Shown: piece by piece, positions 11,772 through 14,520 of the stretch
Layout of the letters: the number at the start of each line of letters is the position of its first letter
Numbering within the stretch: position 1 is the first letter of the stretch
Assembly (NCBI RefSeq): GCF_001592965.1
Contig: NZ_LRPC01000033.1
Span: 1-64,000 of the forward strand
Reading direction: 5' to 3'
DNA length: 64,000 nucleotides
DNA from: Roseivirga spongicola
GTDB taxonomy: Bacteria > Bacteroidota > Bacteroidia > Cytophagales > Cyclobacteriaceae
Notes under the pieces: generated by a model
What the model saw: only the letters and a program-made list of their open reading frames with translations
Told to the model about the DNA's origin: nothing
The model's database searches: none
Translations under genes and position numbers: made by a program

Positions 11772-12719
11772 ATGTTTCAAAAGACTCTTCTATTTCTTTC
11801 CTTCTTTCTTTGTTTTCACTTGGCTTGGGCACAAGAACAAGAAGCCGATTCTACACTTTTGCCTCGTCCAGAGATCATTAACCCTGAAGACACTATTACT
11901 TATTGGAAAAATGGTGGAAACTTCAACCTAAATATCCAGCAGGTAGGGCTTACCAACTGGGCAGCCGGAGGTAGTTCTTCTTTGGCTATTGGAGGCATTG
12001 TAGAAGGTTTTACCAACTACGAGAGAGAAGAGGTGGTCTGGGAAAATAAGCTCAAGATTGGTTACGGTATTATCAGAAACGGAGATAACTCTAATCGCTT
12101 TGAGAAAACGGATGATGCAGTTATTTTGAACTCTAAGTATAGCCAGAAAATGAGTCAGGAAATACTGATGACAGCCACTATCAACTTTAGGACTCAAATG
12201 GATGAAGGGGTGAAGTTGGAAACGGTTTCTGGCCAATCTGAAAAGAGAAGAGTACTCATCTCAGACTTTATGGCGCCAGGTTACCTTCAGGCTTCGCTAG
12301 GTTTAACCTATAAGCCCACAGATTGGGGGTTAACAGCTACGTTGGCACCCTTTGCTGGTCGATTTACATTTGTTCTGAATGACTCTTTAGCAACAGCAGG
12401 GTCTTTTGGTGTGGCAGCCGGTGAAAGGATTAGATCTGAGGCTGGTATTTCGCTCATAGGTTCTTTCAAGAAAACTCTGATGAAGAATGTAGAGTTTGAA
12501 ACCAATTACAACTTCTTCTCAAACTATGAGAAATTCCCGAATACAGTAGTAAACGTAGAAGCAAGCCTAAACCTAAAAGTGAATGACTTTATACAGTCAA
12601 AAATTAATACCCAGCTTATTTATGACGATGATGTTAAAGTCACTCGGTCTGATGGTACACGGGGTAGGGATATTCAGCTCAAGAATGTAATCACGGTTGG
12701 CTTTATTCTGAAGTTTTAG
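11772..12719 (+). CDS. DUF3078 family secreted/outer-membrane protein
   Basis: 315 residues with a signal peptide ending near LAWAQEQ. The DUF3078 hallmark follows: YWKNGGNFNLNIQQVGLTNW and AAGGSSSLAIGG. Alternating hydrophobic strands to the end, with a terminal aromatic (VGFILKF), suggest an outer-membrane beta barrel. Function is unknown in the family. It has its own promoter and converges on dnaX, where the stop codons overlap. Confidence 0.88.
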   Translation: MFQKTLLFLSFFLCFHLAWAQEQEADSTLLPRPEIINPEDTITYWKNGGNFNLNIQQVGLTNWAAGGSSSLAIGGIVEGFTNYEREEVVWENKLKIGYGIIRNGDNSNRFEKTDDAVILNSKYSQKMSQEILMTATINFRTQMDEGVKLETVSGQSEKRRVLISDFMAPGYLQASLGLTYKPTDWGLTATLAPFAGRFTFVLNDSLATAGSFGVAAGERIRSEAGISLIGSFKKTLMKNVEFETNYNFFSNYEKFPNTVVNVEASLNLKVNDFIQSKINTQLIYDDDVKVTRSDGTRGRDIQLKNVITVGFILKF

Positions 12720-14520
12720 AACTCTGGGTCTAGCCCAAGCTTTTCTTGAAGATCACGCAGGGCAGGGTATTTTGATTTAAGATGCTCAAACTTCTCTCTG
12801 TCGGTGTAAAGCATTCTGCCTTTTTCAATTTGCCTTATTTCTGAACTGATTGTCACGTTGTCGTTGGCTAATCCGTCTCTTAGAAATTGAAGTAAATCTG
12901 CTCTAAAGCGTTCAAAAGTAGGTTCTAAGGCCTCGTTGGCAATTGGGATAATCACATGTTTATCTTTGAGAGTATAAGGCTCTTTTAAGATGAGTAGCTC
13001 ATGCTGGAGGCCTCTTTTCTCACGTTCCTCTACAAACTTATTATAAACTTCATCGAGTTGTTCTGCAGTAAAAGGAGTTTCTCTCAGGGTGCCAACCACT
13101 ACTTCTTCCTCTTCGGTATCATCTTCCACTGGCTTTTGCATAGCGGCCTTCAAAGAGTTAAGGTCGGAGGGAATGGCCATGGTTTTACCCGATCCTGGCC
13201 TTCTAACCTTTCTGGTGGTGAGTTGTGCTACTGGCTGAGTTTCTTCTGAAGCCGCAGGTGCTGGTGGAGGAGCGGGAGAGCTAGGTTCTGGATCTTGAGT
13301 AGGTTGAGTTTTGGTTTCAACCTTTGGTTCAGGTTCAGTTTTCGACTCTGCAGCTGGAGTAGTTTCTTTCTTTTCGGCTTCTGACTTCTTAGATTCAGAC
13401 TGCTCTAGAATTTTTTTTTTGATGAGTCGTCCAAAACGCTCACATCAGCCAGTTGAAGGGCAGTTGTTAGGTGCGCCATCTTCAATAGTGCTAGCTCTAC
13501 ATGTAAGCGCTGGTTTTTACTTCCTTTATACTGAATATCGCACTGGTTGGCAATATTTAAAGCAGTAAGCAGGAAAGACATCGGAACTGCGTTCGACTGT
13601 GTTTGGTACTTAGCTTTTACCACATCAGAAACCTCTAATAACTGAATGGTAGCATTGTCTTTGCTTACCATGAGGTCACGGAAATGGCTGCTTAGCCCGA
13701 TTATGAAGTTATGACCATCAAAACCCTTTTTCAGAATCTCATCGAAGATCAATAAAGTTTCGGTGGTGTTTTGAGCCATTAAAGCCTCAGTCATTCTGAA
13801 GTAATAATCATAATCCAGGATGTGCAGGTTTTCTATAGTAGCTGCGTAGGTAACCTTTTTTCCATGTGAGAATGTCACAATAAGGTCGAAAAGAGAAAGT
13901 GCATCTCTCATGGCACCGTCAGCCTTTTGACCAATTAGGTTAAGCGCTTCATCTTCAGCTTCAATACCTTCCTTCTCAGCAATCATTTTCAACTGACCTG
14001 AGATATCACTCACCTCAATTCTGTTGAAGTCGAAAATCTGACAACGAGAAAGAATGGTAGGAATTACCTTGTGCTTCTCGGTAGTTGCTAGAATAAAGAT
14101 GGCGTAAGAAGGCGGCTCTTCTAGGGTCTTCAAAAACGCGTTGAAGGCCTGATTCGAAAGCATGTGAACCTCATCTATGATGTATACCTTATACTTGCCT
14201 TGCTGCGGAGGATAGCGCACCTGATCGATCAGGTTTCGGATATCATCTACGGAGTTATTAGAGGCAGCATCGAGCTCATAGATATTGAAAGAATCGTTGC
14301 CTAAAAGCGGATTGTCAATGGATTGTTCGTTGATTAATCGGGCCACAATTCTGGCGCAGGTAGTTTTACCAACCCCTCTTGGACCACAGAAAAGCAGTGC
14401 CTGAGCTAACTGCTCATTGTCAATTGCATTTTTAAGGGTAGTAGTAATGTGCTCTTGACCTACAACTTCCTCAAAACCAACCGGCCTATATTTCCGTGCC
14501 GAGACAACGAATTTTTCCAT
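12716..14520 (-). CDS. dnaX: DNA polymerase III subunits gamma/tau, with internal frame change
   Basis: The clamp-loader ATPase is encoded from ATG 14520. Visible motifs are Walker A (GPRGVGKTTC), Walker B (VYIIDEVHML), sensor 1 (LATTEKHKV) and the oligomerisation domain, ending near residue 363. Frame 0 then reads DDSSKKKF and stops at 13405, giving a 371-residue gamma-like protein. The -1 frame continues unbroken from the A10 run through an acidic, Pro-rich linker (from ILEQSESKKSEAE) to the tau C-terminal domain ending LGLDPEF at 12716. A shift at the run gives 601 residues, the usual tau length. The tau end is clearly coding, so I annotate one gene with a programmed frame change. A sequencing error in the homopolymer is the main alternative. 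Confidence 0.9.
13411..13420 (-). promoter_or_regulatory. A10 slippery run in dnaX (frameshift or transcription slippage site)
   Basis: Ten consecutive A on the coding strand lie six bases before the frame 0 TAG at 13405-13407, exactly where the clamp-loader core ends. One extra A, two lost A, or a -1 ribosomal slip leads into the open tau frame. E. coli uses a -1 frameshift at A AAA AAG and Thermus thermophilus uses slippage on an A run in the same gene. Confidence 0.75.

Follow-up and report, generated by a model that had tools for sequence, protein, structure and literature searches.

Does a replication gene whose reading frame breaks at a homopolymer make one product, two, or none that works? 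The question arises at the dnaX gene of Roseivirga spongicola, which lies in the window, the 64,000-nucleotide stretch of contig NZ_LRPC01000033.1 that was analysed here. A simple ORF caller would report only a short DnaX at this place, while the split in the frame is genus-wide and the gene most likely functions and has two products.

Organization of the dnaX Locus

The gene is encoded on the minus strand with its ATG at 14520. Frame 0 (13405..14520, minus strand) encodes the clamp-loader core, a short, gamma-like product of 371 residues with matches to TIGR02397 (dnaX_nterm, E 2.6e-115), PF13177, PF22608, and PF12169. At the junction the coding strand reads GAC GAC TCA TCA AAA AAA AAA TTC TAG, in which a putative slippery run of 10 A's (A10; 13411..13420, minus strand) begins at codon position 3 of frame 0. 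The TAG that ends gamma (13405..13407, minus strand) is one codon (TTC), or 3 nt, past the run. The third frame, +1, is closed 13 nt past the run by a TGA (13395..13397, minus strand) that was read by eye. In the −1 frame no stop follows the run until the TAA at 12716-12718. This continuation (12716..13411, minus strand) comprises a linker and the tau C-terminal domain, 231 codons and the stop, and together with 370 residues of the core it gives a protein of 601 residues. The gene is a two-ORF arrangement, with the core and the tau C-terminus in adjoining ORFs that are −1 apart and have the poly-A at their junction.

When searched alone, the −1 tail matches PRK14971 (DNA polymerase III gamma/tau) at profile positions 395-612 of 614 (E 1.9e-21, 76.6 bits), a score far below the whole-protein cut-off of 685, as is expected for part of a protein; a Pfam search with the tail was without a match. 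The sequence-only reading had described a frame 0 that ends at TAG 13405 after the core (DDSSKKKF), an A10 run, and a −1 frame open to 12716 with a tau C-terminus, for products of 371 and 601 residues. The coordinates, the stop, the run length, and both sizes are correct, and the ORF and the PRK14971 match agree with the tau assignment.

The Junction within the Genus

A frameshift mutation or an assembly error, that is, a continuous tau gene minus one A, could produce such a picture, in that one extra A unites core and tail and homopolymer indels are common. Runs of at least 10 A's or T's occupy seven distinct places in the 4.48 Mb genome (nine overlapping hits), of which dnaX is one and two are runs of eleven. 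We searched 19 genomes of the genus for dnaX; 18 were matched, and all 18 have A10 with tau in the −1 frame. Because the same A10 and −1 tau recur in 18/18, the run in the window is not a sequencing error, and both sequencing error and recent mutation are ruled out. The layout is, in addition, common to 155 of the 274 run-bearing genes described below. Mutation or misassembly is thus refuted for the genus and extremely improbable overall, even if A9 members with tau at +1 in g29, g63, and Flavobacterium could be such cases. The reverse logic proposed for this gene, in which frame 0 gives gamma and a shift gives tau, is true of the window's gene and of the 18 matched genomes, and we regard the former as most likely a real, conserved, programmed two-product gene.

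When codons of the C-terminal domain were compared with those of seven congeners, the third position of the −1 frame changed most in every pair, with changes at positions 1, 2, and 3 ranging from 39, 18, and 93 against L018 to 62, 54, and 89 against L012. This excess fits a translated −1 frame. Amino-acid-changing codons outnumber synonymous ones in six of the seven pairs, which indicates that the domain evolves fast and that the constraint on it is moderate. The comparison was confined to codons of the C-terminal domain because the linker aligns badly and contains many indels that are not of three, so that little was gained from a gapped nucleotide alignment of the entire tail to four congeners. 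The genome that holds the window has another coding-strand A10 (L234, G000:C1:881187-881196), in a frame of 254 codons, stop to stop, that is continuous through the run; its product may be a LiaF-type membrane protein.

Relation to Known dnaX Systems

In the portions available to us, Antonov et al. (2013, PMC3711429) describe 17 dnaX genes, drawn from 12 genera, that are split into two ORFs and depend on a shift to make tau. Ten A's are present in nine of the 17, for which transcriptional realignment is suggested and whose species are given in the supplement. The window's gene shares with this reverse type the two adjoining ORFs, the DNA-level −1 shift for tau, and the A10 of those nine, and we see no structural difference from the genes as described in those portions; theirs is a set of 17 genes from 12 genera, ours a phylum sample with mixed phases. 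Conservation in relatives, a trait of the reverse type, is found here in 18/18 matched genomes of the genus. Because a reverse type with 10 A's was published in 2013 (PMC3711429), the layout of the window's dnaX was already known. A second paper (PMC5009743), in its available text, discusses reversed dnaX as ribosomal frameshifting, reports stimulators like those of Escherichia coli for one reversed candidate, that of Chlorobium phaeobacteroides, and foresees that a single nucleotide can reverse the roles of gamma and tau.

The available accounts of the two classical systems frame the comparison. In Thermus thermophilus, transcriptional slippage occurs on an A9, with tau in frame 0 and gamma arising by slippage (PMC1088944, PMC5009743). 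The window's gene has in common with it a poly-A of at least nine, near stops in both non-tau frames (here at 3 and 13 nt), and two products from one gene, as predicted here, whereas frame 0 encodes tau there and gamma here; the Thermus-like phase is found in 114 of 274 run-bearing relatives. In E. coli, a −1 ribosomal frameshift at A_AAA_AAG, a 7-base site with a Shine-Dalgarno (SD) element and a stem-loop, gives gamma (PMC3711429, PMC5009743). Shared with E. coli are an A-rich slip site and one gene whose products, here predicted, differ by the tau C-terminus; in contrast, the shift makes gamma there, and the SD element, the stem-loop, and A_AAA_AAG are all absent at the window's dnaX.

Among the literature matches listed, PMC3711429 and PMC5009743 were the only works on reverse-type dnaX, and PMC12421855 names dnaX in a reference only. 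We found no published account, again among the matches listed and with most subscription journals outside the search, of the phylum-wide extent, the near-fixed run length, the missing length of 8, or the repeated switching described below.

The A Run across Bacteroidota

The dnaX loci were drawn from the genus, from the family (188 of 196 genomes matched), from the phylum (146 of 148 matched), and from 80 named contigs, the 80 top-ranking among at least 594 stretches, with titles or classes in Bacteroidota where named. Among the matches listed, the family reading covers 6 genomes of the genus and 105 others of the 188 matched, and the phylum reading covers 110 of the 146; the sampling is tilted toward the window's family. 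There were 312 loci with a core match, and removal of four duplicates and of L186 and L197, which are too short, leaves 306 distinct loci. The dropped L186 has an A13 run. Another PF13177 match in the window's genome (L001) has no core match and was not used. The longest A run was taken in a span that starts 30 nt ahead of the core end and extends 330 nt beyond it. Counts over these loci are not independent, since the loci are related; counts with one gene per genus agree.

The longest junction run is 10 in 219 of the 306 loci, 9 in 39, 11 in 17, 7 in two, and 6 or fewer in 29, and a run of 8 was found in none of the 306. As a gauge of chance in the same genes, the longest A run inside the core reaches 9 in one gene and 8 in six others, and that in the 600 nt past the junction run reaches 9 in four genes and 8 in 33. 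The 275 genes with 9-11 A's include L137, whose run lies 277 nt past the core end and may be unrelated. The sequence-only reading had advised a comparison with related dnaX genes; in most of the relatives read here the run and the near stops are kept, and the emphasis of that reading on the position of the run at the core's end holds in them as well. In high-GC genes (n = 22), Lys is encoded by AAG in 192 of 262 core codons, yet the run is pure A. Assembly errors may account for some of the odd run lengths.

The run is present in 122/122 loci of the family (genus included), in 30/31 of the other loci of its class, in the one other locus of its order (1/1), in 51/73 from other classes of the phylum, and in 70 of the 78 named loci; of the eight run-less named loci, seven are labelled Bacteroidales. 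L120 (G142) was kept out of these counts and of the frame classes. Its tau-like frame seems to change twice, to −1 after an A10 and back to frame 0 near an A7 about 100 nt past the run, probably because of an assembly indel in a fragmented genome. Five loci with titles Bacteroides, Bacteroidales, and Bacteroidaceae (L167, L171, L195, L201, and L203) read through in one frame and lack a junction A run, which suggests that they no longer make gamma by slippage. In L178, a Bacteroidales MAG, frame 0 ends at 383 residues and tau is in +1 with no A run, which could mean a different shift site, an error of assembly, or a defective gene.

Closure of the Non-Tau Frames

If tau alone mattered, the other two frames would need no stop. 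In 269 of 274 genes a stop lies within 45 nt in each of the two non-tau frames, against about 105 expected from shuffling the next 60 codons; by class, the counts are 153/155 with tau at −1, 111/114 with tau at 0, and 5/5 with tau at +1 (59.2, 43.7, and 2.3 in shuffles). Within 30 nt, both frames stop in 153/155 and 101/114 of the first two classes, compared with 36.6 and 27.2 in codon shuffles. The +1 frame taken singly stops within this distance in 153/155 (101.5 expected) and 101/114 (44.5 expected). With one gene per genus and tau at −1, a stop within 30 nt is found in frame 0 in 74/74 (30.0 expected) and in +1 in 72/74 (47.5 expected). From these near stops we conclude that the site looks built to end translation fast in two frames and to continue it in one.

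A run that merely rescues tau from a drifting frame, a tolerated defect with a functionless gamma, is an explanation that we consider improbable. It is in keeping with the frequent switches of the tau frame, with the continuous, run-less frames of several Bacteroidales, and with the absence of the run from 22/73 loci of other classes. Continuous-frame genes, however, need no rescue, yet they keep the run and the closed alternative frames. Run-less genes close these frames less tightly: measured from 50 nt past the core end (n = 30), the median distance is 95 nt to the +1 stop and 126 nt to the −1 stop, versus 14 and 3 in run-bearing genes, but the run-less loci are richer in G+C (median 0.53 vs 0.42), which lengthens open frames.

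Switching of the Tau Frame

In the 274 classed run-bearing genes tau is at −1 in 155, at 0 in 114, and at +1 in five, and the run starts at phases 2, 1, and 0 in 150, 89, and 36 of the 275. Relatives with an ordinary continuous frame and no run had been named as what would speak against a programmed site. The first part is borne out, in that 114 of 274 have tau in frame 0; the second is not, since those 114 keep the run and the near stops. They look like the same device with the phase alone different, and the frames, the run, and the stops are both conserved and interchangeable among relatives.

On a FastTree phylogeny of core proteins, parsimony requires a minimum of 33 changes of the tau frame, 39 of run length, and 50 of flank phase, where 30 label shuffles give means of 91, 53.5, and 103.5; these minima come from a single tree that carries no branch-support values. 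Run length is tied only weakly to kinship on this tree. Among the 38 genera represented by at least two rows, 8 mix frames, for example, A10/−1 and A11/0 in g37 and A10/0 and A10/−1 in Aquimarina. Two of the genes with tau at +1 have an A10 (L158 and L217); the other three have an A9, one each in g29, g63, and Flavobacterium, beside A10/−1 congeners, and may be indels. Seven genes have an A11 and tau nonetheless at −1, for which 12 A's are needed (L118, L147, L188, L190, L208, L231, and L232), indicating that run length and flanking phase vary independently.

We somewhat favor a reading of these data in which a near-fixed run (9-11, mostly 10) would be kept phylum-wide for its role in slippage, and the coded phase of tau would drift around it. 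With the frame provided by slippage, tau could move among 0, −1, and rarely +1, as it has at least 33 times, and which of the two is the "frameshift product" would be about neutral. Gamma would then be conserved in the phylum and would have disappeared together with the run from some Bacteroidales and from other classes. Follow-up is best directed at the comparative series. Nature has supplied genes with A9, A10, or A11, with tau at 0, −1, or +1, and with the run lost, so that both the need for the two clamp-loader forms and the way in which a cell sets their ratio become testable.

Slippage Mechanism and Stimulatory Signals

We propose that the A10 is probably a programmed slippage site that yields two clamp-loader subunits from one gene, mainly by slippage of RNA polymerase. 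RNA polymerase would slip on the A10 to give mRNAs with differing numbers of A's. Transcripts with 10 A's would stop at the adjoining TAG and give the 371-residue gamma; those with one more A, or with any count in the same frame, would join core and tail in the 601-residue tau; and those in the third frame would stop 13 nt past the run, for a gamma-like product. From comparative sequence data we infer the predominance of transcription in this slippage, its rate, and the making and use of both products. RNA polymerase slippage can give rise to all three frames, and it is the mechanism suggested by a run that has 9-11 A's and never 8, that occurs in any phase, and that is followed by stops in both remaining frames.

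Programmed −1 ribosomal frameshifting on an A_AAA_AAA within the run would give tau of the same sequence from a uniform A10 mRNA, and we consider it unlikely as the main route, though a ribosomal contribution may exist, above all where the run ends AAA AAG. For a ribosomal shift to −1 a heptamer of seven A's is sufficient, and such a shift does not reach the +1 frame. The window's dnaX contains the heptamer, but 9-11 A's are kept and 8 are absent where 7 would be enough, and the third frame is closed as well. The tau frames can be read both ways. Tau is at −1 or 0 in all but five of the 274, as ribosomal shifting would have it, and this rarity of +1 means that the device is not indifferent to frame; it is compatible with ribosomal shifting to −1 or with a surplus of single-A insertions. 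Those five genes, however, are beyond the reach of a single −1 shift, which favors polymerase slippage. The available text of PMC5009743 treats the reversed type as ribosomal.

The stimulators known from ribosomal sites are likewise divided. In the window's gene the heptamer is A_AAA_AAA followed by TTC, and an in-phase A_AAA_AAG is absent. The 30 nt before the run contain no AGGA, GGAG, or GAGG, and an SD stimulator was rejected for this gene, yet such elements are enriched to some degree among relatives: SD-like tetramers are found within the 20-21 nt before the run in 110/274 genes versus 69.7 in codon shuffles and 16 in a fixed interval 120-140 nt upstream, and AGGAG in 18 versus 1. No stable stem-loop was found in the 70 nt past the window's run, which folds worse than 200 shuffles (z +1.97). 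With 70 genes sampled per class, downstream folding has a mean z of −0.28 and −0.35, against 0.03 and −0.02 in controls (45 nt taken 200 nt further on), and z is below −2 in 4% and 10% of genes versus 1% and 4% of controls. With folding slightly more stable than shuffles and no strong hairpin on average, a stem-loop stimulator was rejected as a general feature. In Flavobacterium-type members, the run ends as an in-phase AAA AAG, in line with ribosomal shifting.
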